From Anaerolineae bacterium (GTDB lineage Bacteria > Chloroflexota > Anaerolineae > 4572-78 > J111): a stretch of 64,000 nucleotides of DNA. The notes beneath the pieces are model-generated. The model saw only the letters and a program-made list of their open reading frames with translations. It did not search any database and was not told the DNA's origin. Made by a program: the position numbers and the translations under genes. Shown here piece by piece: positions 15,390 to 34,988 of the stretch (position 1 is the stretch's first letter; every line of letters begins with the position of its first letter). The stretch is from NCBI GenBank assembly GCA_023382535.1, contig JAHDWA010000051.1, positions 14,031 through 78,030 on the forward strand. The letters run 5' to 3'.

Positions 15390-16388
15390 ATGTTAGACGA
15401 AAATTTATCTCAAGGATATTTTTCCCCGTACGATCCATCGCTTATATTTATCCAATCCCGCGTAAAACTAAATCAAGCGACCATTGAAAAGTACGCTGAC
15501 AAGATGAACAACGGCGTACGGTTCGAGGCAGTTAAAGCCATCCAGGACAGCAACGACCTCCTTTACGTCTGGGATGGCTACCATCGCGGTGAGGCTGCCA
15601 AGCTCGCTTGTGTGGAGTTGCTGGTAGAATTTCGGCCGGGTACCCGCCGAGAGGCAGAATGGGAATCACTTGGCGCCAATAAATTGCACGGTCTGCAACG
15701 GACCTCGGAAGATGAAGATAAGGTGGTCCGGCAGGCCTTGCTTGATTTTCCAAAGCAGAGTATCCGAAAAATCAATGAGCATACGGGTGTTGACCGCCGG
15801 CGCGTCGCGCGCATACGCCAGGAGCTCATCGAAGCTGGCGCGATTGCTGATAGTAGGGACGAGGTGGTTGTTGAGCGTAAAGGGCAGGTGTATCGCCAAA
15901 AGGTCCATCGCAAAGACCCCGCTACTCTCGTTGCCAACCAGCCGGAAGGTGCATCTGTCCTATCTACTATCTCGCAAGAAGAGAACTCACTTAATCAAGA
16001 TACTCGATTTCCCGCCACCCAGTTAGGCGAATTTGATTGCCCCCGCTGCTTGACCCAGCAGGTCGTCCATAGAAACGGCGGAGCCTGGTGTCTCGCGTGT
16101 GATGCCAAGTGGAACAAGCTGGACGAGTTCGATGCGGAGCGGTTGAGGCTCCAATCTGGAAGCGCTGCAAAAGTTCATTGTGCTTCTACGCATAATAGTT
16201 CCACTGCGTCTTCGGAATCATCACCCCTATCTCCGGAACCGTTACGTCATCAAGTGCAGGATTTGGCTGGCCGATTAATTAGCCAGATACCTGAGGAGCA
16301 GCTATCAGAGCTAGAAAAACGGTTACGCGCTCTGGCCGAGGAGTTTGGAGTTGAGTTAACTACAGCTCGATGTAATGAGAGATTATAA
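15390..16388 (+). CDS. ParB/Srx-fold protein with C-terminal zinc ribbon
   Basis: 332 residues. The N-terminal part has the ParB/sulfiredoxin-like fold: residues contributed by N-terminal IFIQSRVKLNQATIEKYADKM and the motif DGYHRGEAAKLA at about 62. A predicted helix-turn-helix follows (QSIRKINEHTGVDRRRVARI, about 123-142). A zinc ribbon, CPRC...CLAC, lies at about 217-236, and the C-terminus is helical. ParB-like proteins with this motif occur in plasmid partition, phage and element regulation; no ParA is next to it, so regulation is likelier than partition. AAGGACC precedes the start. Confidence 0.8.
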   Translation: MLDENLSQGYFSPYDPSLIFIQSRVKLNQATIEKYADKMNNGVRFEAVKAIQDSNDLLYVWDGYHRGEAAKLACVELLVEFRPGTRREAEWESLGANKLHGLQRTSEDEDKVVRQALLDFPKQSIRKINEHTGVDRRRVARIRQELIEAGAIADSRDEVVVERKGQVYRQKVHRKDPATLVANQPEGASVLSTISQEENSLNQDTRFPATQLGEFDCPRCLTQQVVHRNGGAWCLACDAKWNKLDEFDAERLRLQSGSAAKVHCASTHNSSTASSESSPLSPEPLRHQVQDLAGRLISQIPEEQLSELEKRLRALAEEFGVELTTARCNERL

Positions 16389-16588: not shown

Positions 16589-17176
16589 GTGACGGACCAA
16601 CAACTGACTGACCCACAACAACCAGATTACCGACCACGCCCCAACGAAAAACTGGGCGATTATCTGCGTCGACTTCGCCAGGCTGCTTCAGCAGTACAGA
16701 GTTACCCGGTCACCCTTGATGAAGTCGCTAACCTGTCAGCCACCTTAGGAGCACCAAACAGTTTCACCAAGGGCTGGCTTAGTTTGGTAGAATCTGGCAA
16801 GCGGTCCAAAAAGATAAGCAGTGAAAAACTGAAAGCAGTTGCCCACATCTATACCAACCTCCTGGGAACCAGGATTTCGGAAAATTGGTTGTTGGAGTTG
16901 GTCGGATATGCCCCAACTATAGAACTGCCTTTCTTGATCCGCGAGCAGGATGAATTGGTCGCCGAACACCTCAAGCGGACTGACATAAGGGCGTTGGTGG
17001 TGTACGCCGGTGAGCTAGCCAAGCTGGGGCAGGATAAGAGCATTGCCACCCTGGTTTCTCTGGCCAGAAGTCTCGTTCAGGCGGCGACGAACGAACAAAA
17101 AAATGAGGACCTCTTCAGTGACCCGGTTCAATCAGAGCACATTAAAATGTTTATGAAGCGGATGGGGCTTGAATGA
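16589..17176 (+). CDS. XRE-like helix-turn-helix protein
   Basis: 195 residues starting with GTG. After a polar N-terminus, residues 20-95 look like an XRE-type DNA-binding domain with an insertion (EKLGDYLRRLRQAASA, then FTKGWLSLVESGKRSKKISS, then EKLKAVAHIYTNLL). The C-terminal half is helical and may dimerise. It is the last protein gene before the tRNA array and probably regulates the element. Confidence 0.75.
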   Translation: MTDQQLTDPQQPDYRPRPNEKLGDYLRRLRQAASAVQSYPVTLDEVANLSATLGAPNSFTKGWLSLVESGKRSKKISSEKLKAVAHIYTNLLGTRISENWLLELVGYAPTIELPFLIREQDELVAEHLKRTDIRALVVYAGELAKLGQDKSIATLVSLARSLVQAATNEQKNEDLFSDPVQSEHIKMFMKRMGLE

Positions 17177-17435: not shown

Positions 17436-17465
17436 TTGACAAAAGGTCACAACTTGTGGTATTAT
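17436..17465 (+). promoter_or_regulatory. strong sigma70-type promoter upstream of the tRNA array
   Basis: Perfect -35 TTGACA at 17436-17441, 18-bp spacer, -10 TATTAT at 17460-17465. It points at the tRNA array and is the only good promoter seen before it. Confidence 0.75.
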
Positions 17466-17469
17466 ATCA

Positions 17470-17711
17470 CCAGTAGTTCAAAACTTTTTTAGGGTTATTC
17501 CAAGTTTAATGATGGCGCACAAATCTTATCAACGCCAATTTGATAATCATAGTTTACCCACGACTTCCAGAACACCGGAAAGCCTGCGGTCAGCTATTGC
17601 CTGCGCGTCCCCCATGATAGAAGGAGGGGTAGCTCCACCTTAATTGGCGACAGAATCCTCGTCTGTCATGGAGGCGCAAGCACCAAGATTGGTCTTGCGT
17701 CTTTTTGTTTT
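17470..17711 (+). ncRNA. candidate structured RNA or array leader
   Basis: Bounded by the promoter at 17436 and the terminator at 17675-17711, with no coding frame. It contains stems such as AAGGAG with CTCCACCTT and GACAGA with TCTGTC. It could be a roughly 240-nt small RNA or an attenuated leader whose readthrough transcribes the array. I recognise no known RNA family. Confidence 0.4.
17675..17711 (+). terminator. rho-independent terminator before the tRNA array
   Basis: CGCAAG/ACCAA (17675-17686) pairs with TTGGT/CTTGCG (17689-17699) with a one-base bulge, followed by TCTTTTTGTTTT. Confidence 0.75.
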
Positions 17712-17767
17712 AAATCATTTTTGCGAACTGAGCCTTGTTGGTACTTTAACAACCGAATTCTTTCCAG

Positions 17768-17868
17768 GGGTCGGTGTCCCGAGCGGCAAAGGGGGTTGAC
17801 TGTGGATCAATTGGCTATGCCTGTGTGGGTTTACCCGTACCGGGCACAGGCGAGTCCCACCCGGCCCT
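17768..17868 (+). tRNA. tRNA-Tyr-like gene with GTG anticodon and T-loop insert
   Basis: Acceptor GGGTCGG/CCGGCCC, Tyr-like D arm, 13-nt variable arm (GGC/GCC stem) and anticodon loop CTGTGGA: the body is Tyr type but the anticodon at 17802-17804 is GTG (His). A 19-nt insert (17833-17851) sits in the T loop after TTT; removal restores TTTGAGT. A separate normal tRNA-His exists at 19500. Confidence 0.7.
17833..17851 (+). other. 19-nt T-loop insert, copy A
   Basis: ACCCGTACCGGGCACAGGC between T-loop positions 56 and 57 of the Tyr-like gene. CCCG and CGGG can pair around a 3-nt loop. The 3' flank begins with G here but with A in the other copies, which fixes the insert boundaries. Confidence 0.75.
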
Positions 17869-17892
17869 CAGTTTTTCGGATTAATGTAATAA

Positions 17893-17964
17893 CGCGGGGT
17901 GGAGCAGCGGCAGCTCGCCAGGCTCATAACCTGGAGGTCGTGGGTTCGAATCCCACTCCCGCTA
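17893..17964 (+). tRNA. tRNA-fMet (CAT), initiator
   Basis: CGCGGGG acceptor with an unpaired C1/T72, GTGGAGCAGC start of the D arm, anticodon loop CTCATAA, T arm GTGGG/CCCAC. The first-pair mismatch marks it as the initiator. No CCA encoded. Confidence 0.93.
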
Positions 17965-18128
17965 AAATTCAAACCAAGGTCGAGGCAGGCCAGGTACCAC
18001 CAGCAATCTGGTTAGTCGAGACGACCGGTAAACGTCCGGCCAATGACTTGCCGTCGTGACAAAAGGTTCGACTTGTCTGCACAGAGAGATATACTCCCTT
18101 GCCCCGATATTGGCCTGAGTCTGACCAG

Positions 18129-18201
18129 GGGGCTGTAGCTCAGTTCGGAGAGCACCTCGTTTGCACCGAGGAGGTCAGGGGTTCAATTCCCTTCAGCTCC
18201 A
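18129..18201 (+). tRNA. tRNA-Ala (TGC)
   Basis: Acceptor GGGGCTG/CAGCTCC, anticodon stem CCTCG/CGAGG with loop TTTGCAC. Complete cloverleaf without CCA. Confidence 0.93.
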
Positions 18202-18284
18202 TCTTTGTGGACAGCCGGTAAGTTGTCCACATTCACATACTGTCGGTATGGGGTTGCTGCCAGGGATGAATTCTATTATTTTTC

Positions 18285-18363
18285 GCTCCAGTGGGGGAGT
18301 CTGGCCGTCCCCGCCGCCCTGTCAAGGCGGAGAATTTCACGGGTTCGAATCCTGTCTGGAGCG
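18285..18363 (+). tRNA. tRNA-Asp (GTC)
   Basis: Acceptor GCTCCAG/CTGGAGC, anticodon CCGCC-CTGTCAA-GGCGG, G73. The variable region (AGAATTTC) is slightly long. Confidence 0.9.
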
Positions 18364-18373
18364 CCTAAATATT

Positions 18374-18459
18374 GGAGAGGCTAGCCGATTGGTGACGGCA
18401 GCCCCCTGCTAAGGGGTCGAGGTGAATAGCCCTTGAGGGTTCAAATCCCTCCCTCTCCG
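18374..18459 (+). tRNA. tRNA-Ser (GCT)
   Basis: Class II tRNA, acceptor GGAGAGG/CCTCTCC, anticodon loop CTGCTAA, long variable arm, T arm GAGGG/CCCTC. Confidence 0.93.
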
Positions 18460-18542
18460 CTGATTAACTCGCCGAAATTATCCGGCAGTCAGGATACGAT
18501 TCTGCTATCGGTTACAAAAGTCGGGTTCTTCTACTAAAATCT

Positions 18543-18630
18543 GCGCCGTCGTAGCTCAGGGGCCAGAGCACCCGGCTTTTAACCGGGGGGCCAGTTCAGG
18601 TTTACGCAGGTTCGAATCCTGCCGGCGGCA
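18543..18630 (+). tRNA. tRNA-Lys (TTT) with enlarged variable loop
   Basis: Acceptor GCCGTCG/CGGCGGC, anticodon CCCGG-CTTTTAA-CCGGG, normal T arm GCAGG/CCTGC. The variable region is 18 nt and not the usual 5, containing CCAGTTCAGGTTTAC, so about 13 nt have been inserted. Confidence 0.85.
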
Positions 18631-18641
18631 CTCGATTTTAT

Positions 18642-18714
18642 ACCTCCCTTCCTCAAGGGATAGAGCGTTTGGTTGCGGACCAAAAGGTTGCAGGTTCAAG
18701 TCCCACCGGGGGTA
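18642..18714 (+). tRNA. degenerate tRNA-Arg-like gene (GCG)
   Basis: Anticodon arm TTTGG-TTGCGGA-CCAAA reads GCG. Acceptor ACCTCCC/CGGGGGT has one mismatch, and D and T stems are each poorly paired. GCG is not a usual bacterial arginine anticodon (ACG is). Possibly non-functional. Confidence 0.55.
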
Positions 18715-18772
18715 CAGTCCGTTGGTTCTCAATGTTCTGGGAAGATGGCGTTATGCTCCAAAAGCCCAGTAT

Positions 18773-18845
18773 AGCTGCGTAGCTCAGTCGGTAGAGTGGT
18801 TCTTTCATACGGAACGGGTCAGTAGTTCGAGCCTACTCGCAGCCA
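18773..18845 (+). tRNA. tRNA-Met-type (CAT), A1-C72 mismatch
   Basis: Acceptor AGCTGCG/CGCAGCC with A opposite C at the first pair, anticodon GTTCT-TTCATAC-GGAAC, T arm AGTAG/CTACT. Elongator Met or Ile2 (lysidine) cannot be told apart from sequence alone. Confidence 0.85.
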
Positions 18846-18933
18846 CAGGTCTGCGCTGTTGCAGCAGTGCTGCTTTTACTCTGGATTAGCTATAGATTCT
18901 TTAAGCGTTTAGTGAGATGTTACAACCTCACCT

Positions 18934-19027
18934 GGAGGCGTAGCTCAGCCTGATCAAAGCCCTGGCCTCATAAGCCAGCCGTCCTTAGTTCACCCGTGCC
19001 GGGGACAGGCAAATCCAAGCGCCTCCA
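18934..19027 (+). tRNA. tRNA with CAT anticodon (Met/Ile2) and T-loop insert
   Basis: Acceptor GGAGGCG/CGCCTCC, anticodon CTGGC-CTCATAA-GCCAG. T stem CTTAG/CCAAG has one mismatch and the T loop is split by a 19-nt insert at 18992-19010; removal gives TTCAAAT. Confidence 0.8.
18992..19010 (+). other. 19-nt T-loop insert, copy B
   Basis: ACCCGTGCCGGGGACAGGC, same position (56/57) and same CCCG/CGGG pairing as the other copies. Confidence 0.8.
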
Positions 19028-19063
19028 GATCAAAGATGGATGAGTTGACAAAGTCTATTCCAG

Positions 19064-19136
19064 GCTGATGTGGCGCAGCTGGTAGCGCGTCTGATTGAAA
19101 ATCAGGAGGTCGTCAGTTCGATTCTGACCGTCAGCA
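19064..19136 (+). tRNA. tRNA-Phe (GAA)
   Basis: Acceptor GCTGATG/CGTCAGC, anticodon TCTGA-TTGAAAA-TCAGG, T arm GTCAG/CTGAC. Confidence 0.92.
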
Positions 19137-19140
19137 CTCC

Positions 19141-19213
19141 AGCCTCGTAGCTCAGGGCTAAGAGCATCCCTCTGATAAGGGGAAGGTCGTCAGTTCGATC
19201 CTGACCGAGGCTA
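19141..19213 (+). tRNA. tRNA-Ile (GAT)
   Basis: Acceptor AGCCTCG/CGAGGCT, anticodon TCCCT-CTGATAA-GGGGA, T arm GTCAG/CTGAC. Confidence 0.9.
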
Positions 19214-19341
19214 TAGCTGGCTTCGTCGTCTCAAAGTGCACTTGGGTTTTTATTCATCGCGAGGTCGTTATATCCAGGCGCAGCCCTAGCCAGGCGGCGC
19301 TGTAGCATAGAGCAGCGCAGTGATGCTCAGAAAAACTATGT

Positions 19342-19405
19342 AGGAGCGTAGCTCAACCCGGTAGAGCGTCGATCTCCAAAATCGGTTCAAATCCTGCCGC
19401 TCCTG
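19342..19405 (+). tRNA. tRNA-Trp-like (CCA), variable loop and 5' T stem deleted
   Basis: Acceptor AGGAGCG/CGCTCCT and anticodon TCGAT-CTCCAAA-ATCGG are intact, but the T loop TTCAAAT follows at once. About 10-14 nt (variable loop plus 5' half of the T stem) are missing. 64 nt long; probably a deletion product. Confidence 0.65.
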
Positions 19406-19410
19406 CTGAC

Positions 19411-19486
19411 GCCGTCGTAGCTCAGTTGGAAAAAGAGCAATCGCCTCTTAAGCGATGGGTCGCTGGTTCGAGACCAGCCTGCGGTA
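19411..19486 (+). tRNA. tRNA-Lys (CTT)
   Basis: Anticodon ATCGC-CTCTTAA-GCGAT, T arm GCTGG/CCAGC. Acceptor GCCGTCG/CTGCGGT contains one mismatch and two wobble pairs. Confidence 0.85.
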
Positions 19487-19499
19487 TAGATGTATAGGT

Positions 19500-19572
19500 G
19501 TGGCCGTAGCTTAACGGGCAGAGCATCTGGTTGTGGCCCAGAAGGCTAAGAGTTCGAACCTCTTCGGTCACC
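19500..19572 (+). tRNA. tRNA-His (GTG)
   Basis: Acceptor GTGGCCG/CGGTCAC followed by C73, anticodon TCTGG-TTGTGGC-CCAGA. The base before position 1 is T, so the G-1 of His tRNAs is not encoded. Confidence 0.88.
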
Positions 19573-19582
19573 TATGGTACAT

Positions 19583-19653
19583 TCCGGGTTCGTCTAATGG
19601 TAGGACACTTGGTTCTGGCCCACGAGATTGAGGTTCGAGTCCTTGACCCGGAG
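19583..19653 (+). tRNA. tRNA-Gln (CTG)
   Basis: Acceptor TCCGGGT/ACCCGGA, anticodon loop TTCTGGC; one mismatch in the anticodon stem (CTTGG/CCACG). Confidence 0.85.
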
Positions 19654-19659
19654 TTTCGG

Positions 19660-19730
19660 TGGGATGTGGTTCAACGGTACAACGCTCGGCTGTTAACCGA
19701 GTAATGCGAGTTCGAATCTCGCCGTCCCAG
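19660..19730 (+). tRNA. tRNA-Asn (GTT)
   Basis: Acceptor TGGGATG/CGTCCCA, anticodon CTCGG-CTGTTAA-CCGAG, T arm GCGAG/CTCGC. Confidence 0.9.
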
Positions 19731-19902
19731 TGTAAATTTGATGACGGATCGGCGGCTAGATTGGGCCAGAAATATCACTTTGGCATCCCTTTGTTGACGA
19801 GAAACAGGGAAGTCGTGGTTCAGTGGAGAGAGCAGTCGAAGCGTATTTAAGAGATCAAAGTTCAATGCTCTGTAGCCGACAAACCCAACAAGGAAGATCA
19901 CT

Positions 19903-20115
19903 ATGGCTCAAAATATCTTTATCAAAGACTTGCTCCAACTGCCGCTTGACCAACGCCTCGATCTGGTTGTGGCGCTGGCTCAAAGTGTCACCGACGAGGC
20001 CCAGAAAAAGCTTCCGCCTGGACCGGTGGCTCACGTCGCAACCCTGCGCCATGCTGCCCGGGAACTGCGCCGAGTCACGAGATTAGACTACAACTATCAA
20101 CAAGATAAAGAGTGA
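19903..20115 (+). CDS. small protein inside the tRNA array, antitoxin-like
   Basis: 70 residues; AAGGAAG lies about 7 nt before ATG 19903, and the frame is the only protein-like one among the tRNAs. The segment LLQLPLDQRLDLVVALAQSV resembles the N-terminal helix of putative addiction-module proteins (LxxLPxxERLxLVxxL), but the rest is not typical and no toxin gene is adjacent. Might stabilise the element; uncertain. Confidence 0.55.
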   Translation: MAQNIFIKDLLQLPLDQRLDLVVALAQSVTDEAQKKLPPGPVAHVATLRHAARELRRVTRLDYNYQQDKE

Positions 20116-20143
20116 AGCGGCGAATCAATCGCCGCCTTTACCC

Positions 20144-20216
20144 AGGGATGTAGCTCAGTTGGCAGAGCGCCTCGTTTACACCGAGGAGGCCGGCAGTTCG
20201 AACCTGTCCATCCCTA
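20144..20216 (+). tRNA. tRNA-Val (TAC)
   Basis: Acceptor AGGGATG/CATCCCT, anticodon CCTCG-TTTACAC-CGAGG, T arm GGCAG/CTGTC. Confidence 0.92.
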
Positions 20217-20222
20217 TTCAGT

Positions 20223-20293
20223 GTGGTTGTCGTCCAACAGTAGGACTCTGGCTTTCCAAGCTGGCTATATCAGTTCGAATCTGTTCAACCGCT
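20223..20293 (+). tRNA. tRNA-Gly (TCC)
   Basis: Acceptor GTGGTTG/CAACCGC, anticodon CTGGC-TTTCCAA-GCTGG with wobble pairs, T stem with one mismatch. Confidence 0.85.
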
Positions 20294-20311
20294 TCTGAAT
20301 ATAGCAACAAT

Positions 20312-20421
20312 AGGCGGAAAACTCAGGGGTAGAGTGCCACGCCGACATCGTGGAAGCCGATGGTTCACCCGTGCCGGGTATACCGCAAGGCTTATCCCCT
20401 TTGGGGACAGGCAAATCCGTC
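20312..20421 (+). tRNA. tRNA-Val-like (GAC), C33, long T-loop insert, 3' acceptor missing
   Basis: AGGCGGA start, D arm ACTC/GAGT, anticodon CCACG-CCGACAT-CGTGG with C33 and not U33, T stem GATGG/CCGTC. A 46-nt insert splits the T loop (20367-20412). After the T stem the expected 3' acceptor strand is absent, so the gene as encoded cannot form a closed acceptor stem. Confidence 0.65.
20367..20412 (+). other. 46-nt T-loop insert, copy C (long form)
   Basis: Begins ACCCGTGCCGGGTA and ends GGGGACAGGC like the short copies, with about 27 extra nt between. The extra part contains ACCGCAAGG (GCAA tetraloop) and TCCCC/GGGGA hairpins. Confidence 0.75.
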
Positions 20422-20438
20422 CGAAGATTTTCAGTGAT

Positions 20439-20556
20439 CGAGGCGTGGCCCAGCCCGTCAGCGCGCTTGAATGGAGTTCAAGAGGTTGACAGTTCACCCG
20501 TGCTGGGTATACCGCAAGGGTATTCCTTCGGGGACAGGCAAATCCGTCTGCCCCGA
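20439..20556 (+). tRNA. tRNA-Pro-like body with GGA anticodon and long T-loop insert
   Basis: CGAGGCG/TGCCCCG acceptor and GTGGCCCAGCCCGTCAGCGC D arm resemble the tRNA-Pro(TGG) at 21068. The anticodon stem CTTGA/TCAAG encloses ATGGAGT, giving GGA (Ser codons) in a 7-nt loop. A 44-nt insert interrupts the T loop (20496-20539). Confidence 0.65.
20496..20539 (+). other. 44-nt T-loop insert, copy D (long form)
   Basis: Begins ACCCGTGCTGGGTA, ends GGGGACAGGC. The C-to-T change in the second arm keeps pairing as G-U. The centre has ATACC-GCAAG-GGTAT and a CC-TTCG-GG tetraloop hairpin. Confidence 0.75.
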
Positions 20557-20570
20557 CTTTAGAAGAGGAT

Positions 20571-20643
20571 GCGGTTGTAGTTCAGTCGGTAGAACATCTC
20601 GTTGCCAACGAGAAAATCGCCGGTTCGAGTCCGGCCAGCCGCC
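20571..20643 (+). tRNA. tRNA-Gly (GCC)
   Basis: Acceptor GCGGTTG/CAGCCGC, anticodon TCTCG-TTGCCAA-CGAGA, T arm GCCGG/CCGGC. Confidence 0.9.
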
Positions 20644-20653
20644 ATGCTTTTGC

Positions 20654-20728
20654 GCCGGCGTAGCTCAATCGGCAGAGCAGCTCGCCTGTACCGAGAAGAT
20701 TTTGTTGGTTCGAGTCCAACCGCCGGCT
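20654..20728 (+). tRNA. tRNA-Thr (TGT) with C33
   Basis: Acceptor GCCGGCG/CGCCGGC and T arm GTTGG/CCAAC are perfect. Anticodon loop is CCTGTAC, so position 33 is C and not U. Confidence 0.8.
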
Positions 20729-20876
20729 TGGTGTATTTGGCGCTGGATCAGATAGTCAGAATCTTACAGAGTGATCGTCCACCTGAATCCTGGCAGGGTA
20801 CTGCGCGAAATTCGTGTACTATTTTGGTAGTAGTGTTGTAAGGGTGGCCAACCCAGAGACAAGGGTATCTTTCAGT

Positions 20877-20949
20877 GCTGGTGTAGCTCATCGGGCAGAG
20901 CGGCGCTTTGGTAGAGCGCAGGTAGGCAGTTCGAGGTTGCCCGCCAGCT
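20877..20949 (+). tRNA. tRNA-Thr (GGT)
   Basis: Acceptor GCTGGTG/CGCCAGC, anticodon GCGCT-TTGGTAG-AGCGC. T loop reads TTCGAGG, slightly atypical. Confidence 0.85.
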
Positions 20950-20966
20950 TAGTTTCATAATTTTTC

Positions 20967-21025
20967 GCCAGCATAGCTCAGTATCTTTAAAGAGCAGCGC
21001 GTCGGTTCGAAGCCGGCTGCTGGCC
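20967..21025 (+). tRNA. tRNA-like gene lacking the anticodon arm
   Basis: 59 nt. Acceptor GCCAGCA/TGCTGGC, D stem GCTC/GAGC and T arm GTCGG/CCGGC are kept, but no anticodon stem-loop lies between D and T arms. Deletion product or a tRNA-like RNA of another use. Confidence 0.6.
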
Positions 21026-21067
21026 TTTTGGGTTAATTCAACGGCCTCAAGTTGAATAGACCTTCAG

Positions 21068-21141
21068 CGGAGCGTGGCGCAGCCCGGTAGCGCACATGCC
21101 TTGGGCGCAGGGGGTCGGCGGTTCAAATCCGTCCGCTCCGA
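21068..21141 (+). tRNA. tRNA-Pro (TGG)
   Basis: Acceptor CGGAGCG/CGCTCCG, anticodon loop CTTGGGC, T arm GGCGG/CCGTC. Confidence 0.9.
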
Positions 21142-21221
21142 CAAGAAAATGGAGTAAAGTAGACAGACCGCCTTGATACTGTTACTCATTCCTGGTTTAA
21201 GTCCTGATACCAGGTAATTCT

Positions 21222-21327
21222 GGAGAGGCAAGCCGATGGGTTAGACGGCAGTGGTCCCGAAAACCACCGAGGCGCAAGCCCTTGGAGGTTCACCCGTGCC
21301 GGGTACAGGCAAATCCCTCCCTCTCCG
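21222..21327 (+). tRNA. tRNA-Ser (CGA) with C33 and T-loop insert
   Basis: Class II, acceptor GGAGAGG/CCTCTCC, anticodon GTGGT-CCCGAAA-ACCAC (C33), long variable arm. T loop split by the 19-nt insert at 21292-21310; removal gives TTCAAAT. Confidence 0.8.
21292..21310 (+). other. 19-nt T-loop insert, copy E
   Basis: ACCCGTGCCGGGTACAGGC, same position and boundaries as copies A-D. Confidence 0.8.
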
Positions 21328-21343
21328 CTTCTTTTTATAACAT

Positions 21344-21506: not shown

Positions 21507-21512
21507 CTTTTT

Positions 21513-21584
21513 GTCGTCATCGTCTAGTGGCCCAGGACATCACCTCTTCATGGTGATTACTCGAGTTGACTTTTGTTGACGGCG
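21513..21584 (+). tRNA. tRNA-Glu-like (TTC) with C33 and disturbed T arm
   Basis: Acceptor GTCGTCA/TGACGGC and anticodon TCACC-TCTTCAT-GGTGA (C33). The T arm is altered (GAGTTGACTTTTG) and lacks TTCRA. A normal tRNA-Glu lies at 21884. Confidence 0.6.
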
Positions 21585-21759
21585 CCTTTTTTGCTTTCTC
21601 GTACTGCGGAGAGCCAGCCGAGGGGTTTTCCGGTTGCGACCGAGCCCCCTACCTCCAGTAACCAGACCTGGCCTAATGGTAGGCAGAACATCCTCATGTC
21701 GAGGATGCCTGACTGTCGAGAGACAGCAGCAATGGAGGCTGATGAAAGCAGTACAATCT

Positions 21760-22032: not shown

Positions 22033-22345
22033 TTTGAGCTGGTGTGGTGGAACTGGCAGACACATGTGACTTGTGCGCCGTGTAACGACGGCAAGAATTG
22101 AGTCCACAGGACTCTGTAGGAAGGTGTAAAGAAAACCTACAAGCCCAACCGATTTAGCAGAAAGGGAAACCGGACTGTGAACATAGCATATCGGTGAAGC
22201 AGATTGAGGCAAAACTGGGGTAGCCAAGACGATACTGCAAGGGCTGGCTGACAAGGTGAAAGCTAAACTGCTTAAATCCTAATATCCAGGGGCCAAAGCG
22301 TGGGCCTACAGGAAAACCAGTTGTAAACCTGTAACTTGGGGAGTA

Positions 22346-22370
22346 AGGCTATTATTAAGTCGGATAGCCT
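22346..22370 (+). other. intron domain I EBS1 hairpin
   Basis: Seven-base-pair stem with an 11-nt loop; loop bases AAGTCG match the last six exon bases with one G-U pair. Supports the 5' splice site at 22072/22073. Confidence 0.8.
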
Positions 22371-22596
22371 GAATAGACACCGAACCAAGAACACGCCTCA
22401 GTGAGAGGTGGCAAGGATAAAAACGGGACACCTAAATCAGCCTAGAACGTTCAAGCCGATTGGAACACGGGATGGCCTACGGGACGCGAGTCCTATGGTC
22501 ACGGAGTCCCCATAGTAGTCAGCGGTAGGGAAAGCCTACTACACGGCGAAGGGGGACAGGTAAACCAAATCTCGAAGGACAAAAGAGGCGTGCGAA

Positions 22597-24375
22597 ATGC
22601 AAAATGCTCAAATGTACCTTGAGATAGTCAGGAGTCGAGGCGAAAGGAGGCTAGAACTTAGCAGAGTATATCGAAACCTTCAGAGCAGGGAACTTTTCCT
22701 TAGAGCGTATGCCAAGTTATATGCTAATGATGGCGTACTCACACCAGGAGTAGACCCGAATGACACCATTGACGATATGTCGCTCAAGAGGACAGATGAC
22801 ATCATCGAAGCCTTAAAAGCAGGGACATACCAATGGAAACCTGTACGTAGGACTTTCATTCCGAAGAAAAATGGCAAACTCAGACCCTTGGGCGTGCCAA
22901 GTTGGAGTGATAAACTGCTCCAAGAAGTAATCAGAATGGTACTCACTGCATACTACGAGCCACAATTTTTAGATGTGTCACACGGGTTCAGACCAGGACG
23001 AGGCTGCCACACAGCATTACAAAGCATTCGGTTCAACTGGAAAGGAACGAAGTGGTTCATTGAAGGCGACATCAAAGGCTGCTTCGACAACATTGACCAT
23101 AACAAACTGTTAGAGGTCATAGGACGAAGCATAAAGGACGAGCGGCTTCTAAAACTCTTAAAAGAGATGCTTGAAGCAGGATACTTGGAGGACTGGAAGT
23201 ACCACAAGACATATTCGGGAACGCCCCAGGGCGGGATTATCAGTCCACTTCTAGCAAACATTTTCCTCAACGAACTGGATACCTTCATTGAAAAAGAGTT
23301 AATCCCAAGATACACAAGAGGGGAGAAAAGGAAGCCAAACCCGGAATACATACGGCTGACCAAAAAGCTGCGACAAGCCAAAGAAGAAAGAGATATTGAC
23401 CTATATAGAGCCACCAGGAAAGAACGAAGAACACTCTCCTACGGAAATCCTGACGACCCAGACTATAGACGGCTCAAATATGTTCGATATGCCGACGATT
23501 TCTTAATAGGATTCGTCGGACCAAAATCCGAGGCTGTTGAAGTTAAGCAGCACATAAAAGAGTTTCTCGAAACTATCGGACTAACGATGTCCGAAGAGAA
23601 AACCCTTATCACCCACGCGACGACACAACGCGCCCGATTTCTTGGCTACGACATCTATATGGCAAAGGGTGACAGCCGAATGACAAACAAACGTCGCTCT
23701 ATCAATGGCGTGCCAATGTTCAGTGTTCCTAGTGAAGTCGCCAAAGAGTGGGAAACACGCTATACGCGCAACGGAAAACCCTACCATAGAAAAGGGTTAA
23801 CCCCTCGCTCGGACTACGATATTGTGATGACCTATAATATGGAATTTCAAGGGGTAGTGAATTTCTACCTTATGGCCCACGATGTCGCAGACAAACTATA
23901 CCCAGTAAAATGGATATTTATGCAATCGCTCGTTAAAACTCTAGCAGTCAAACACAAGCGAAAGACGACCTGGGTATATCGCAAGTATAGCCGCAAAGAA
24001 AATGGCCTGAAAGCCATCGTGGTGGAGGTTTCAACAGAAGGACGTGAACCGCTTAAAGCTAAGTTCGGAGCCAAACCCATCCGCTTCAAAAAATGGACGG
24101 TCATAGATGACAAGAAAGCCCAACTACTGACGGGAAGAAATGAGATAATAAGAAGGTTACTTGCCAACCAATGTGAATTATGCGCATCAACGGAAAATAT
24201 CAGAGTACATCATATTCGTAAACTCAAAGACCTTAAGCGTCGGTATGAAGGGCGTCCTGAACCGCCAAAATGGGTGGTCAGGATGATAGAAATGTGCCGA
24301 AAAACGCTGGTGGTATGTAAGAAATGCCATCAAGAAATTCACGCAGGAATCTATGATGGTTCAAGACTGAAATAA
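22597..24375 (+). CDS. ltrA: group II intron reverse transcriptase/maturase with HNH domain
   Basis: 592 residues encoded within intron domain IV. RT motifs: PKKNGKLRPLGVPSWSDKL, FIEGDIKGCFDNIDH, GTPQGGIISPLLANIFLNEL and the catalytic YADD at 298-301. A maturase (X) region follows, and the C-terminus (about 525-585) is an HNH nuclease with CELC...HHIRKL...CKKCHQEIH. The protein helps the intron RNA fold and copies it into new DNA sites. It appears intact, so the intron may still be mobile. Confidence 0.95.
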   Translation: MQNAQMYLEIVRSRGERRLELSRVYRNLQSRELFLRAYAKLYANDGVLTPGVDPNDTIDDMSLKRTDDIIEALKAGTYQWKPVRRTFIPKKNGKLRPLGVPSWSDKLLQEVIRMVLTAYYEPQFLDVSHGFRPGRGCHTALQSIRFNWKGTKWFIEGDIKGCFDNIDHNKLLEVIGRSIKDERLLKLLKEMLEAGYLEDWKYHKTYSGTPQGGIISPLLANIFLNELDTFIEKELIPRYTRGEKRKPNPEYIRLTKKLRQAKEERDIDLYRATRKERRTLSYGNPDDPDYRRLKYVRYADDFLIGFVGPKSEAVEVKQHIKEFLETIGLTMSEEKTLITHATTQRARFLGYDIYMAKGDSRMTNKRRSINGVPMFSVPSEVAKEWETRYTRNGKPYHRKGLTPRSDYDIVMTYNMEFQGVVNFYLMAHDVADKLYPVKWIFMQSLVKTLAVKHKRKTTWVYRKYSRKENGLKAIVVEVSTEGREPLKAKFGAKPIRFKKWTVIDDKKAQLLTGRNEIIRRLLANQCELCASTENIRVHHIRKLKDLKRRYEGRPEPPKWVVRMIEMCRKTLVVCKKCHQEIHAGIYDGSRLK

Positions 24376-24386
24376 GGTTTACTGGA

Positions 24387-24420
24387 GAGCCGGATGATGC
24401 GAAAGTATCAAGTCCGGTTC
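24387..24420 (+). other. intron domain V
   Basis: 34-nt catalytic hairpin with GAGCCGG/CCGGTTC arms, a GAAA tetraloop and a two-base bulge, the most conserved part of group II introns. Confidence 0.88.
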
Positions 24421-24549
24421 GCGTGGGGGGCGGTTGGAAAAGTGCCCATTTGTGGGTAACTCGCTGGCCGCCTACCCAACAAAATCGCGCGAGCTTTGGC
24501 TCATGGGAGTTCAACTCTCCCCACCAGCATCGAATCTAATGATATTTTC

Positions 24550-25236: not shown

Positions 25237-26271
25237 ATGCCGAACATGTTACTAAGCCGGGATGAATTCCGACAAGCTGTTTTTGAACGCGACAAATATC
25301 ACTGTGTTACCTGCAAATTCCTCGGCCAGGATGCTCACCACATCCTGGAGCGCCGCCTCTTTGATGATGGCGGCTATTACCTTGCCAACGGGGCAACGCT
25401 GTGCGCTGATTGCCATCTCAAAGCCGAGATGACGCTGATCAGTTGTGAAACAATCCGGGCTGTTGCAGGAATTACCGAGATCATCCTGCCACTGCACCTG
25501 GAGCCGGACTGCCGTTACGATAAGTGGGGCAATCCGATCTTGCCCAGTGGGCAGCGATTGCGGGGTGAACTGTTTTTCGACGAGTCGGTACAGAAGGCGC
25601 TGGCGCAGGGTCAAGTCTTGGGCCTCTTTACTAACCGGGTCAAATATCCGCGTACCTTTCACCTGCCCTGGTCATCCAGCGTAACCACTGACGATCGGGT
25701 CATTGGCGACTGCGGCCATTTCGTGGGCAAGGAAGTCGTCGTGACCGTCAAGATGGATGGCGAGCAGATCACGATGTACAGCGATTACCTGCACGCCCGG
25801 TCGCTTGAGTGGGAACGCCATCCGGCCCGCAGTTGGGTGGCCAATTTGCACGGCCGGATCGGTTGGCAAATCCCAGAGGCCTGGCGGATATGTGGCGAAA
25901 ATCTGTACGCCCGACACAGTATCCATTACACCCATCTAGCTGACTACTTTCTAGTTTTCTCGGTTTGGGATGAGCGAAATATCTGCCTCTCCTGGGCTGA
26001 TATGGAAGAGTGGGCAGCCCTGCTAGGCCTCAAGACTGTACCGGTTCTTTACCGAGGGATCTGGCAAGAAGGGGTAATTCGAGAACTGTTCCAGCCGACC
26101 TGGAATGGCGATCCGATGGAGGGTTATGTGGTGCGTCTGGCTGAAGCCTTCTCTTATAGTCAGTTTCGCCGATCGGTGGCCAAGTACGTCCGGCCGGGCC
26201 ACGTACAGACCTCCCATCACTGGCGCTATCAGCCGGTCATACCCAACAGGTTGGCCGCCGATCAGAATTAG
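25237..26271 (+). CDS. HNH nuclease-RNA ligase (Rnl2-type) fusion
   Basis: 344 residues. Residues 1-70 form an HNH domain (C23xxC26, HH at 34-35, C56xxC59H60). Residues about 85-330 are a nucleotidyltransferase ligase domain: nucleophile lysine in VKMDGE (K172), ENLYARHSI as motif III, EGYVVR near 295 as motif IV and VAKYVR near 314 as motif V. This set and spacing fit T4 Rnl2-type RNA ligases, which seal nicked double-stranded RNA such as broken tRNA. It starts 268 nt after the last tRNA. A role in tRNA repair or in joining tRNA exons is inference. Confidence 0.88.
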   Translation: MPNMLLSRDEFRQAVFERDKYHCVTCKFLGQDAHHILERRLFDDGGYYLANGATLCADCHLKAEMTLISCETIRAVAGITEIILPLHLEPDCRYDKWGNPILPSGQRLRGELFFDESVQKALAQGQVLGLFTNRVKYPRTFHLPWSSSVTTDDRVIGDCGHFVGKEVVVTVKMDGEQITMYSDYLHARSLEWERHPARSWVANLHGRIGWQIPEAWRICGENLYARHSIHYTHLADYFLVFSVWDERNICLSWADMEEWAALLGLKTVPVLYRGIWQEGVIRELFQPTWNGDPMEGYVVRLAEAFSYSQFRRSVAKYVRPGHVQTSHHWRYQPVIPNRLAADQN

Positions 26272-27384: not shown

Positions 27385-27912
27385 ATGGTCGGAGTTCTTC
27401 TTCTCAACGCTTCATTTGAGCCACTTTACGTCATCAGTCTTCAGCGAGCCGTTATGCTTCTGCTGGGTGACCAGGCTTTGCCCGTTCAGGGCGAGCCTAC
27501 GGCAGCCGTAATGCGCTCGCCTTCCATCTCCATTGAAATCCCTTCTGTCCTCCTGCTCAAAAAGTACGTGAATGTGCCCCGCCGTGGCGCGCGTTGGAGC
27601 AAGGCCGGAGTGTTGCAGCGGGACGGCTACCATTGTATCTATTGTGGAGTCCGGCTCGGTGACAAGCAGGCCGGTCGGGTCTTGAATCGCCAAGGTTTTA
27701 GCGTGGATCACCTAATCCCCTTGAGTCGCGGTGGTGATGACTCATGGGGGAACACCGCCGCAGCTTGTTTGCGCTGCAATGTTAAAAAAGAGGCCAGAAT
27801 GCCGCATGAGGCCGGGATGAAGCTCTTGTGGGAGCCAAAGACTCCGCGCACCAGTTATCTGGTTGTTCGCGGGACTGTGCCGGTGGCCTGGAAGAAGTAT
27901 ATTGAGATCTAA
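27385..27912 (+). CDS. HNH endonuclease family protein
   Basis: 175 residues. The N-terminal LLLNASFEPLYVISLQRAVM is typical of a widespread HNH family in Actinobacteria and Chloroflexota. The HNH part has CIYCG (about 92), SVDHLIPLSRGG (about 111-122), NTAAACLRCN. Zinc-binding and metal-binding residues are all present. The cellular role of this family is not established; linked to DNA processing. GGAAGG lies before the start. Confidence 0.9.
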   Translation: MVGVLLLNASFEPLYVISLQRAVMLLLGDQALPVQGEPTAAVMRSPSISIEIPSVLLLKKYVNVPRRGARWSKAGVLQRDGYHCIYCGVRLGDKQAGRVLNRQGFSVDHLIPLSRGGDDSWGNTAAACLRCNVKKEARMPHEAGMKLLWEPKTPRTSYLVVRGTVPVAWKKYIEI

Positions 27913-30728: not shown

Positions 30729-33700
30729 ATGGATGATAAACTGCCAGCCAAAAATCGTAATTACAATCTCAGAAATATCCGCGCCCTTCTCATCAAAGGC
30801 TTCAGCGATGAGGAATTACGCAATCTATGTTTCGATATACCTGATTTCAAACCTGTCTATCACCAATTAGCTCAAAATAGCGGCAAAACGGAAATTGTGA
30901 GCCGGTTGTTGGCTCATGCGGAACAAACCTTCCAACTTGATCAACTCCTGGTCTTGGCTCAGGAGGCCAACCCTGCCGGTTACGAAGCCCACCAACCTTA
31001 CTTTGTTGATGCTTCTGTTTCTGACTCTCCCTACCTGGGTATGCAGTATTTCGATGTTAATGATGCCGACCGTTTCTTTGGTCGGGAGCACCTGACGGCC
31101 AAGTTGGTGAGCTACTTACAAGAGCGTCGTTTTTTAGCTGTCATCGGCGCATCGGGTAGCGGCAAATCATCGGTGGTTCGAGCTGGACTCATTCCTGCCC
31201 TCAGTCGAGAGCAGCCATTGGCCGATGGTACCTTCCCGCCTGAAGACAGCTTTCGTTGGCCTGTTCATATTATTGCACCTACGGCTCATCCCCTTGAAGC
31301 TTTGGCGACTTCTCTGACCCGTGACTCTGAGTCTGTCACCGCAACAGCCACCCTGATGGATGATCTCAAAACCGATGCTCGTAGTCTGCATCTTTATGCC
31401 GTTAAACTCTTGCAGCGTACTGCGCCTAAATCTACTAAACTGTTCCTGTTAGTTGACCAATTTGAAGAACTATTCACGCTTTGCCGTGATGAGACAGAAC
31501 GCCGTACCTTCATTGATAACTTGCTGACCGCTGCCGGTCTTTCCTCGTCCGGGACAAATGATGGACCTACGATTGTTGTCATCACGCTGCGGGCCGATTT
31601 CTACCATCACTGCGCCCAATATAATACTCTGCGCGAAGCCCTAGCCCGTTATCAGGAATATATTGGCCCTATGAGCGCCGATGAATTGCGCCAGGCTATT
31701 GAGCACCCGGCCCAAAGATCAGGCTACGAGTTTGAGCCAAGCCTGGTTGACCTGTTGCTGCGCGAGGTAGGCGATGAGCCGGGAACCTTACCTCTCCTAT
31801 CCCATGCCTTATTGGAGACATGGCAACGGCGGCGGGGGCGGACTCTCACTTTTGCCGGTTACCACGAGTCGGGCGGGGTGCGCGGAGCTATCGCCAAAAC
31901 TGCTGAAACTGTTTACAACCAACGCCTGACTCCAGCACAACAAGAGATTGCCAAACGAGTCTTTCTGAGTGTAACTGAGTTGGGTGAAGGCACTCAGGAT
32001 ACGCGCCGCCGGGCTACCCAGGTAGAACTTATCCCCGAGCCAACAGAAGCACCTTTAGTTGAAACTGTTCTAAAAACATTAGCTGATGCTCGATTGGTTA
32101 CTACCGGAGAAGGGACTGTTGAAGTCGCTCATGAAGCGCTCATCCGCGAGTGGCCCACCTTGCGGCGCTGGCTCGATGAGAACCGGCAGAGTCTCCAAAT
32201 CCATCGCCAACTGGCCGAAGATGCACTAGAGTGGGATAAAAACAACCGGGATGAAGGTTATATCTACAGAGGCAAACGCCTGACCGATGTAGAGAAATGG
32301 GTTGCTGAGCATGCAAACGAATTGACCACGCTTGAACGGGCCTTCATAGCGGCCAGCAAGCAAACCCGGCCCTTCTGGGCCGATTTGTCGAAACGTCCTC
32401 CCAAAACATTAAAGCAGTTAGCTTTCATTTATCTCATTTTGTGGCTGCTAATTCTTGTTTTTAGCTTTATTAGTTTCGGTATTAACTTCGGTTTTGCAGC
32501 ACTTGAATTGAGTTGGTTTTCAATTCTGGCTGGAGCAGTCGGTAGTTTGGCAAATATTGGGTATCAACTTTACCGCCGTGAGCGGCTGAAGGTGGAATTT
32601 GATTTTCCTTACATGGCATCTATCTTAGTCCAACCGTTTATTGGTCTTGCTTTAAGTATGGGGATTTATTTAGTTACAATTGTGAGTTTACTGCTGATCG
32701 ACAAATTTGATTGGGTCACCAGCGCTCCCCTGGTTGGACTCATGATAACAGCCAGCGGCTTTACAGGCTTCTACCAGCGTTATGTATCTAGTTTAGTTTT
32801 ACCCCAAATAAATACAGCTGAGGAGGCCAATAGGGATGATCTGATTGAGACGGCTGGGACGATATCATTTGCTGATGAACCGGCAAGGGACTATTTGCAC
32901 CCGGCTAAAAGTTTATCACCCAGGGTACTTATCGGGGGGGGAGTTGTTTATGCCGTAATTTGGTTGATCGTGTTGATTGGCGCCTTTATCTTTGGTGCTA
33001 TTATCTTTGCTAAAGAAATGAACAATATAAGTTCCTCTTTGGCTGGTCAGTCTGGAGGCTTGGAGGTTTTGTTTGGGGCGTGGTCTCCAATGCTAGCTGG
33101 CGGAATGGGAGGTACAATTAGCATTCTGTGGTATCTTTATCACTGGAAAAGGATGGGACAATTAGTTGAAAGGTCTTATATCTTAGCTATTTTAGTACAG
33201 CCCATTATTGGCCTTTTCTTTGGGCTGATAATCTACTTGGCTTTAGGAATTTTATTAACAACTAGGAGCTCAGATACTTTATTCTCACCCACTACTATGG
33301 TGATCCTGTTTATCCTGTCTGGACTGGCCGGCTTCCGCCAGCAATTCGTGGGACGACAGTTGGCGGGCATTGAGGAAGTCGAAGAAATCTATCAAGGTAA
33401 TCATCATTCTCCAGCGCTAATAGGAGGAAAAGGGGATGGGTTGGAGTGGGGTTTGTTCATTTTTATTTATGCCTTGATATGGTTGATTGTGTTTATTGGA
33501 GCTTTAATCTTTACCGGAAATATAAATAATGATATACAGTCTTTGGCTGGACAGTCCGGAGGCTTGGCGGCTGCGAGTTCAGCCTGGTACTCGATGCTAA
33601 TTGGTGGAGTAGCTGGTGCAATTTATATTTTATTTAGCCTGTGCCACTGGGGTACGCTGAAGCGTTCAGTGGATTTTTATGATGTCATGTCTATCCTGGT

Positions 33701-34988
33701 ACTGCCCATTCTTGGTTTATTTTTTGGATTAATCACTCATTTAGCCGTAATATCTGCTTTCTTGACCTTTAATGTTGCTGGAGCTGTTTCCATAAATACC
33801 GTTATGATATCTCTTCTACTCAGTGGTATAGCCGGCTTCCGTCAACAACGAATCGGTCTATGGGTGTTTGGAGCAAAAGGGATAACTGACACCAATTTTG
33901 GTGAAGTTTCCATGGCTAAACAAGAAACTGGAGTTGTCAATAGCCGGAAATTACAGCGTAAATCATCCCTTTTGGCCCTACTTACTTTTGGGTATGCTGT
34001 GATATGGTTGATTGTCTTTATTGCCGGCATAGTTTTTACTGGGAATATAAATTCGGCTATACAAAACCTTTCTGGACAATCAGGGGCCCTTGCAGCTATG
34101 GATGCAGCTTGGTATTCGGCACTGTACGGTGGAATCGGCAGCATCACAAGCATTTTGTTTGGACTATATCAGAAGGGTAAGATAAAAGAATTGTTTAACT
34201 ATTCCGATTTTTTGATTGCCCTGACGCAACCAATCAATGGTTTTTTCCTGGCGGCAGTGGCGCATTTAACTATAACAATTTTCTTCTTGACTTTCAATGC
34301 GTCTGGGGCAACAAGTCAATTCACGGTTATTCTACAAGTGATAGTCGGCTGGCTGGTGGGGCTTCGGCAGTGGCAGGTGGGAATACGTTTGGCCAGAATC
34401 GAGGCTGTGGGAAAAGCATACTTAGATAGAAGGTTGTCTGCTGTCACTCCAAGTAATGCCGCCATTAGTAAGTGGAATTTGCAATCAGGGCAGGTTGGGT
34501 GGAGTTTGTTTATCTTTGTCTATGGTCTGATTTGGTTGATTGTGTTTATTGGAGCCATAATCTTTGTTGGGAATTTAGCTATCTTTGTGCAACCGTTGGT
34601 TAGTCAATCGGATATCTGGAGGATTATGGTGGGGGCAATATGGTATTCCGCACTGTGGGGGGGAATTGGGAGTGTGGTCAGTTCGTTGTTTAGCCTCTAT
34701 GGTGTAAGAGAGACTCGCAGAAAGTCTACCTTTCAGTCTATCCGTTTTAGCTTATTGCAGCCCATTTTGGGCTTTCTTTTTGGGGCGGCAAGTCACTTTG
34801 TTGTTGTAGTGGTGTTCTTGTTCTTATTCGACACATCAGCAGTCTTTTCGCAAATGTTTGTGATTATGCAGCTAGTAGTTGCCTGGCTGGCCGGTTTGTT
34901 ACAGCGTTTTGTTTGGCCATTTGGGGCTATGTCCGGGGCACCGCTACCCTCTGAAAAAACTATCTTGACTCCTCAATCAGCCAACTAA
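30729..34988 (+). CDS. EAD-nSTAND1 ATPase with five tandem 4-helix membrane units
   Basis: 1419 residues. Residues 1-90 look like an effector-associated, death-like adaptor domain (IKGFSDEELRNLCFDIPDFK). Residues about 105-520 are an nSTAND1 NTPase: DRFFGRE, Walker A GASGSGKSS (140-148), Walker B LFLLVDQFEELF (about 238-249) and PGTLPLLSHALLETW. From about 555 to the end there are five repeats of roughly 175 residues, starting near 558, 735, 910, 1085 and 1261, each with about four membrane helices and the pattern Y-x-x-IWLIVFIGA...AWYS...GGIG. STAND ATPases act as switches in signalling, death and phage defence; a multi-pass membrane effector would fit pore formation. No partner gene is adjacent. 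Confidence 0.88.
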   Translation: MDDKLPAKNRNYNLRNIRALLIKGFSDEELRNLCFDIPDFKPVYHQLAQNSGKTEIVSRLLAHAEQTFQLDQLLVLAQEANPAGYEAHQPYFVDASVSDSPYLGMQYFDVNDADRFFGREHLTAKLVSYLQERRFLAVIGASGSGKSSVVRAGLIPALSREQPLADGTFPPEDSFRWPVHIIAPTAHPLEALATSLTRDSESVTATATLMDDLKTDARSLHLYAVKLLQRTAPKSTKLFLLVDQFEELFTLCRDETERRTFIDNLLTAAGLSSSGTNDGPTIVVITLRADFYHHCAQYNTLREALARYQEYIGPMSADELRQAIEHPAQRSGYEFEPSLVDLLLREVGDEPGTLPLLSHALLETWQRRRGRTLTFAGYHESGGVRGAIAKTAETVYNQRLTPAQQEIAKRVFLSVTELGEGTQDTRRRATQVELIPEPTEAPLVETVLKTLADARLVTTGEGTVEVAHEALIREWPTLRRWLDENRQSLQIHRQLAEDALEWDKNNRDEGYIYRGKRLTDVEKWVAEHANELTTLERAFIAASKQTRPFWADLSKRPPKTLKQLAFIYLILWLLILVFSFISFGINFGFAALELSWFSILAGAVGSLANIGYQLYRRERLKVEFDFPYMASILVQPFIGLALSMGIYLVTIVSLLLIDKFDWVTSAPLVGLMITASGFTGFYQRYVSSLVLPQINTAEEANRDDLIETAGTISFADEPARDYLHPAKSLSPRVLIGGGVVYAVIWLIVLIGAFIFGAIIFAKEMNNISSSLAGQSGGLEVLFGAWSPMLAGGMGGTISILWYLYHWKRMGQLVERSYILAILVQPIIGLFFGLIIYLALGILLTTRSSDTLFSPTTMVILFILSGLAGFRQQFVGRQLAGIEEVEEIYQGNHHSPALIGGKGDGLEWGLFIFIYALIWLIVFIGALIFTGNINNDIQSLAGQSGGLAAASSAWYSMLIGGVAGAIYILFSLCHWGTLKRSVDFYDVMSILVLPILGLFFGLITHLAVISAFLTFNVAGAVSINTVMISLLLSGIAGFRQQRIGLWVFGAKGITDTNFGEVSMAKQETGVVNSRKLQRKSSLLALLTFGYAVIWLIVFIAGIVFTGNINSAIQNLSGQSGALAAMDAAWYSALYGGIGSITSILFGLYQKGKIKELFNYSDFLIALTQPINGFFLAAVAHLTITIFFLTFNASGATSQFTVILQVIVGWLVGLRQWQVGIRLARIEAVGKAYLDRRLSAVTPSNAAISKWNLQSGQVGWSLFIFVYGLIWLIVFIGAIIFVGNLAIFVQPLVSQSDIWRIMVGAIWYSALWGGIGSVVSSLFSLYGVRETRRKSTFQSIRFSLLQPILGFLFGAASHFVVVVVFLFLFDTSAVFSQMFVIMQLVVAWLAGLLQRFVWPFGAMSGAPLPSEKTILTPQSAN

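Follow-up and report, generated by a model that had tools for sequence, protein, structure and literature searches.

A conserved hairpin insert occupies one T-loop position in five unrelated tRNA genes of an Anaerolineae tRNA array

The 64,000-nucleotide stretch of DNA analyzed here, which we refer to as the window (positions 14,031 to 78,030 of contig JAHDWA010000051.1 from an Anaerolineae bacterium), contains a dense tRNA array of bacterial type on the forward strand, between 17.8 and 25.0 kb. More than 30 tRNA genes make up this array, five of which carry an insert in the T loop. Three inserts are short forms of 19 nt, I1 (17833..17851, ACCCGTACCGGGCACAGGC), I2 (18992..19010, ACCCGTGCCGGGGACAGGC) and I3 (21292..21310, ACCCGTGCCGGGTACAGGC), each found both with a 19-nt pattern and with a covariance model built on the T arm and its insert. 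The other two are long forms: I4 (46 nt, 20367..20412), recognized by insert removal and by the covariance model, and I5 (44 nt, 20496..20539), recognized by the covariance model, in which one C-to-T change in the hairpin is kept as a G-U pair. All five read on the forward strand and lie between T-loop positions 56 and 57 of unrelated tRNA bodies, and joining the two halves leaves a 7-nt T loop in every case. The original prediction had claimed just this arrangement, and its account of the position is confirmed. With up to three mismatches allowed, the 19-nt pattern has three matches in the window, where 0.02 are expected, and none of 100 shuffles reached that number.

The ends of the insert are conserved, with ACCCG at the start and AGGC at the finish, and the middle is variable. 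In four of the five copies GTTC precedes the insert and AAATCC follows it; I1 deviates, with TTT and GAGTCC, and differs from I3 at two places inside the insert. The boundary is ambiguous by one base, an A being present on both sides in I2 to I5. Removal of 27 nt between two GGG runs converts I4 exactly into I2, as does removal of 25 nt from I5, so that each long form is a single deletion or insertion away from I2. The proposal that one element has spread among these genes is borne out to this extent. A derivation of the insert from a predicted group II intron that also lies in the array was considered and rejected: GGGGACAGGTAAACC, at 22552, resembles the 3' part of the insert, and 0.4 such matches (at most two mismatches, whole window) are expected by chance.

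With the inserts in place, none of the five carriers is called by ARAGORN or by Rfam, which at gathering scores reports 27 tRNA matches and one group II intron domain in the window; the unaltered I2 gene reaches just 18.6 bits in Rfam (18934-18987), which is below the threshold. Removal of all five inserts raises the ARAGORN count from 28 to 32, the genes gained being those with I1, I2, I5 and I3. The I1 gene (17768..17869) has a class II body, an anticodon read as GTG and T in place of C at position 56. The I2 gene (18933..19028) has the anticodon CAT and a D loop without GG, which is also lacking from the D loop of the I5 gene (20439..20557), a Pro-like body with an anticodon read as GGA. 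The I3 gene (21222..21328) is a tRNA-Ser(CGA) with C33 for U33. The remaining carrier, a Val-like tRNA-like gene with I4 (20311..20428, ends placed by eye), has GAC in the anticodon loop and C33, and it is not called with or without its insert. It retains a T stem, and since its 3' acceptor strand pairs at no more than four of seven positions with upstream 7-mers, it is at best a relic. All of the carriers lie on the forward strand.

The bodies were compared with a library of 519 tRNAs, 28 of them from the window. I3 and I5 have their nearest bodies in the array itself, Ser gct and Pro tgg, respectively. The I4 body is nearest to Val tac of another locus (L020), and that of I2 to Ile gat of L033 and then Met cat of L020. 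The best scores of I1 were with a Lys ctt of L041, an Asn gtt of L071 and a Tyr gta of L020, which differ in isotype. The Tyr-like label first given to this gene would fit the class II form of Tyr tRNAs; ARAGORN reads the gene as His gtg. The I1 and I5 genes may each carry an anticodon of another type on their body (GTG on the class II, presumably Tyr-like body; GGA on the Pro-like body).

When the five T arms are aligned, inserts included, 88% of T-stem cells are paired and three of the five stem pairs are altered on both sides. The covariation score, computed jointly for T stem and hairpin, was matched by 2 of 500 shuffles and fell from 0.400 to at most 0.067 when the partners were slid by one to three columns. 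The T stem thus covaries across copies, which indicates that the inserts interrupt genuine T arms of differing sequence. The predicted CCCG/CGGG hairpin is indeed paired in all 20 cells, the G-U pair included. Its reading as a maintained structural element is upheld only in that every copy has the hairpin; three of the four pairs never vary, so that this invariance would be compatible with a structure and proves none. A-C mismatches in the T stems of I2, I3 and I5 had raised the idea that the 3' strand of the T stem is overwritten during copying, which was dropped: I5 and I3 have the same 3' strands as the array's Pro and Ser genes, and hence it is the 5' strands that have changed there, as judged by eye.

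No relative of the insert emerged from several kinds of search. An exact pattern (TTC, the hairpin, 0-30 nt, ACAGGC), which misses copies with other flanks such as I1, had no match in our viral_contigs collection and a single match in genome_contigs (84,980 species), at a locus (L001) that we judged a chance hit, with no ARAGORN tRNA in its 8 kb. The window itself presumably lies outside both collections, since four of its copies would have matched this pattern. It is probably of metagenomic origin, and the style of its proteins would suggest Chloroflexota as the host phylum. The short form without flanks had no match in viral_contigs, and a relaxed hairpin pattern found 16 viral stretches, none with an ARAGORN tRNA. 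In blastn comparisons of the insert regions with plasmids and phages, 18, 5 and 8 records gave short matches with a best E of 0.01, and no match had a tRNA annotation under it. The covariance search that had been suggested recovers only the five known copies in the window, with E values of up to 10 admitted, and it found nothing in 90 other loci (1.79 Mb; 90 of 94 loci were covered, L001, L002, L004 and L005 being left out). A scanner that joins T-loop halves tested 7,536 candidates from 95 sources and recovered four of the five known inserts, missing I4; three of its rows, from L011, L015 and L069, were judged to be chance (two of 71 and 66 nt, one of 5 nt). A neighboring protein (15390-16388), used as a guide to related contigs, led to no relative. 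A limited literature search, with most subscription journals outside its reach, found no bacterial case of a recurrent tRNA insert.

The carriers also differ from the other genes of the array in their bodies. We compared the widely kept residues G18G19, U33, T54, T55, C56 and A58 and found that at least one is missing in all five carriers (C56 changed to U in I1, G18G19 absent in I2, U33 changed to C in I3 and in I4, which has no acceptor partner in addition, and G19 lost in I5), as against 3 of 28 insert-free ARAGORN genes (Gly tcc, Thr tgt and Ser tga). The corresponding Fisher p-value, to be taken as indicative, is 2.4e-4, or 3.5e-3 when six relics in the array are added as defective controls. 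Among distinct tRNAs of other loci such a loss occurs in 51 of 451, compared with all four ARAGORN-callable carriers (p 1.9e-4). The G19:C56 elbow pair is lost or changed in three of the five carriers, in one of the 28 array genes (p 0.007) and in 14 of the 451 others, although in I1 it becomes G19-U56, where wobble pairing is still possible. These changes weigh against a precise intron, which would keep the pair under selection. In addition, the cloverleaf of the four callable bodies without insert lies further from the best fold than that of insert-free genes (Mann-Whitney p 0.0066), the I2 body alone being mid-range.

We favor, with moderate confidence, an explanation in which the insert was copied from T arm to T arm and is likely retained in the RNA, the genes likely no longer serving in translation. 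A short hairpin-coding insert of 19, 44 or 46 nt would have been copied between T arms at the DNA level once the array had been broken, by way of short T-arm homology, namely the GTTC and AAATCC flanks that four of the five copies share. HNH endonucleases encoded with the array are obvious but hypothetical candidates for making such breaks. The insert would not be spliced, and the five genes would be unfit as normal translating tRNAs. The common position, the sequence identity, the covariation, the residue losses and the lack of exact-pattern relatives are direct observations; the copying route, retention and loss of function are inferred. Such copies could be tolerated because, by the genetic code and wobble, insert-free array tRNAs should read each of the carriers' codons (His gtg, Met cat, Ser tga, Val tac and Ser gga). 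The altered RNAs might be dead or might act as decoys for tRNA-cutting defenses, the former being the simpler case.

Several points weigh against this explanation. The residues were picked after the genes had been seen, the numbers are small, and controls called by ARAGORN favor well-formed genes. I1, I2 and I3 retain most of their stems, and tRNA folding energies are rough, with insert-free genes missing the cloverleaf by up to 10.8 kcal/mol. The C56-to-U change in I1 completes a fourth pair between GTTT and the AGGC insert end and so may be an adaptation rather than decay. The exact position in all five genes and the 7-nt loop restored each time are as for an intron, the hairpin is kept throughout while only the middle of the insert varies, and pairing of GTTC with AGGC reaches three of four in four copies and four of four in I1. 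Recombination would have to rely on just 4-6 nt of flanking homology, which is very short. Finally, an HNH-RNA ligase encoded downstream might allow splicing, though such ligases also adjoin insert-free arrays.

A first alternative, which we regard as unlikely, is that the insert is a true T-loop mini-intron, excised from the RNA after which the tRNA is resealed, perhaps by the downstream HNH-RNA ligase, with the T stem holding the ends together. The exact joint, the restored loop with four of five genes then called by ARAGORN, and the conserved ends around a variable middle are what such an intron would leave. A weak helix between exon and insert, GTTY/AGGC, which uses G53 of the T stem, also recurs in a common register across copies. 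Pairing is nevertheless limited to at most three of four positions in I2, I3, I4 and I5, two of these pairs being G-U, and is complete only in I1 (GTTT/AGGC, four of four with two G-U, and four of four also at offsets 1 and 1). In the short forms this helix is separated from the hairpin by a 1-by-3 internal loop, as judged by eye, and not by the two opposed 3-nt bulges of a bulge-helix-bulge (BHB) motif. A relaxed BHB test, with 3 shifts, 16 offsets and G-U pairs allowed, found no 4-bp central helix with 3-nt bulges at both junctions, whereas another trait of BHB introns, near-identical inserts at one position of unrelated bodies, is present. At E up to 10 no Rfam match of any kind overlaps an insert, and none thus points to a group I or group II ribozyme core. 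The array does appear to tolerate introns: a predicted group II intron (22073-24480), with a reverse transcriptase/maturase gene at 22597-24375 and a domain V match at 24385-24480, splits tRNA-Leu(TAA) into exons at 22038-22072 and 24481-24529. The break falls within the anticodon loop, behind the first base of the anticodon, and ARAGORN recognizes Leu(taa) once the exons are joined; cyanobacterial group I introns use the same site. The mini-intron proposed in the original prediction is not supported, with no known intron architecture, five bodies that still miss a widely kept residue after splicing and a type of ligase that is not tied to inserts.

The ligase in question is a 344-residue protein with an HNH nuclease domain fused to an RNA ligase (25237..26271, forward strand, PF09414 E 1e-32), encoded 3.9 kb past the last insert. 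Its HNH half matches PF01844 at E 8.6e-4, slightly below the cut-off, and residues 134-339, the ligase half, share 51% identity with plasmid proteins of Deinococcus radiodurans that carry the annotation RNA ligase family; a sequence search against solved structures returned nothing at E 0.01. The K172-x-D-G motif and residues H34, H35, N51 and H60 are invariant in this protein and 20 aligned relatives, so that the intact motif and HNH residues count in favor of resealing. Relatives are abundant, with 7,912 matches among the 7,999 candidates scored, which were the best-sharing ones only. At least three tRNAs occur in the flanks (up to 10 kb) of 28 of 80 viral ligase loci, the best 80, with some duplicates, of 111 relatives found with the ligase alignment, yet the insert model is empty in 90 other loci. 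Among ten phage and plasmid records (L007-L016), at least three tRNAs lie near the ligase in L012 only, and a Variovorax plasmid has array, ligase and HNH gene in the window's order. HNH-RNA ligase fusions recur beside tRNA arrays in these viral contigs and on a megaplasmid (L006 15001-16062). The HNH-RNA ligase accompanies tRNA arrays in many genomes, and not the insert, and its role near arrays is probably tRNA repair. A new type of mobile bacterial tRNA intron, 19-46 nt long, that homes to the 56/57 joint and is excised and resealed by this enzyme is, in our view, quite improbable; if true, it would be to bacteria what transposed tRNA introns are to the Thermoproteales, although other enzymes would be at work.

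It is also doubtful that the insert is a retained, functional extension of the elbow, in which the hairpin replaces the G19:C56 contact and the products act as tRNAs or as decoys against tRNA-cutting defense enzymes. Loss or change of the elbow pair in three carriers and retention of the hairpin in all copies agree with such a role, and tRNA arrays have been discussed as antidefense systems (PMC12803027). For all four callable carriers, however, the T stem is predicted to form with a probability of 0.00 if the insert is kept, and carrier I4 lacks an acceptor stem. Nor does the D loop offer a partner: pairing with the insert tail gave nothing common to the five copies, only 5 bp in I2. The insert tail of I1 can form 7 bp with its own variable arm. 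We consider it improbable, finally, that the insert is a mini-transposon or recombinase target, placed as a hairpin at a T-loop motif by a transposase or integrase with only incidental effects on the RNA: the strict choice of site is joined by transposase-like genes in the window (of IS110 and IS605 types, and of ISKra4 type with a score under the NCBIfam cut-off), and the common use of tRNA T loops as integration sites speaks for it too, but inspection of the five copies by eye reveals neither terminal inverted repeats nor a target duplication apart from a single ambiguous A, no copy lies outside tRNA T loops in the window, and 19 nt is very short.

The rest of the array comprises 28 ARAGORN genes and six insert-free relics recognized by eye, all on the forward strand between 17893 and 24969. 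The relics (19342-19405, 19812-19883, 20967-21026, 21511-21580, 21608-21662 and 21667-21742) are truncated or missing an arm, although the one at 19342 nonetheless scores above the Rfam cut-off. Among the called genes, tRNA-Lys(ttt) (18545-18631) has a variable region about 13 nt over the usual length, and tRNA-Asp (18285-18365) has an enlarged D loop and variable region. A candidate array promoter (TTGACA, 18 nt, TATTAT; 17436..17465, forward strand) matches 11 of 12 consensus positions, in a region where this pattern has 6 sites against 5.8 expected. By eye, the leader preceding the array (17600-17720) shows an inverted repeat with a run of T behind it, which may be a terminator or attenuator; it is absent from the output of the scan that reported the promoter. 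A second HNH protein, an endonuclease (27385..27912, forward strand, PF01844 E 8.5e-11), lies beyond the ligase. Further on, a 1419-residue protein (30729-34988) with EAD7 and nSTAND1 domains and, by eye, a long hydrophobic C-terminal part resembles STAND defense or signaling proteins in style.

The dense cluster of tRNA genes and the adjoining HNH endonuclease give the locus two features of the tRNA array units found in mycobacteria and in mycobacterial plasmids and phages, in which an HNH gene is a usual companion, as PMC5966550 and PMC12803027 describe. An XRE-type regulator together with HNH is reported there for about 87% of G2 arrays (PMC5966550); in the window, the product of 16589-17176 has an HTH_31 match (E 0.0034) weaker than the Pfam cut-off. 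Those units hold redundant, structurally odd tRNAs that the same accounts discuss in terms of antidefense. The window differs from what they describe in having one insert in five genes, followed by an HNH-RNA ligase; the words intron, T-loop and RNA ligase have no occurrence in the main texts of either paper. The idea of a nuclease beside tRNA genes as a driver of recombination, which we propose for the window, has a parallel in the SegB endonuclease of phage T6, which drives recombination around tRNA genes with the help of short homologies (PMC13096335). SegB differs in being a GIY-YIG enzyme and in its amplification of segments, and the account of it in PMC13096335 does not describe a T-loop insert.

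Group I introns of bacterial tRNA genes are self-splicing, run to hundreds of bases and interrupt the anticodon loop. The insert resembles them in lying inside a bacterial tRNA gene; at 19-46 nt it is too short for such a ribozyme. To our knowledge, only archaea offer a precedent for one short element recurring at the same joint of tRNA genes that are otherwise unrelated. The closest described pattern appears to be tRNA intron transposition in the archaeal Thermoproteales (Fujishima et al., 2010, as described in PMC4090602), where very similar inserts likewise occupy unrelated tRNA bodies. The introns of that account have BHB splice motifs, however, whereas the helix in the window is complete in only one of five copies, within an array that is bacterial in kind.

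The inserts hide five genes from ARAGORN and Rfam. The occurrence of the HNH-RNA ligase next to many arrays offers a separate lead that can be tested. If the insert is spliced, it would represent a new RNA-processing system; if it is retained, it would show the remodeling of the tRNA arrays of mobile elements.

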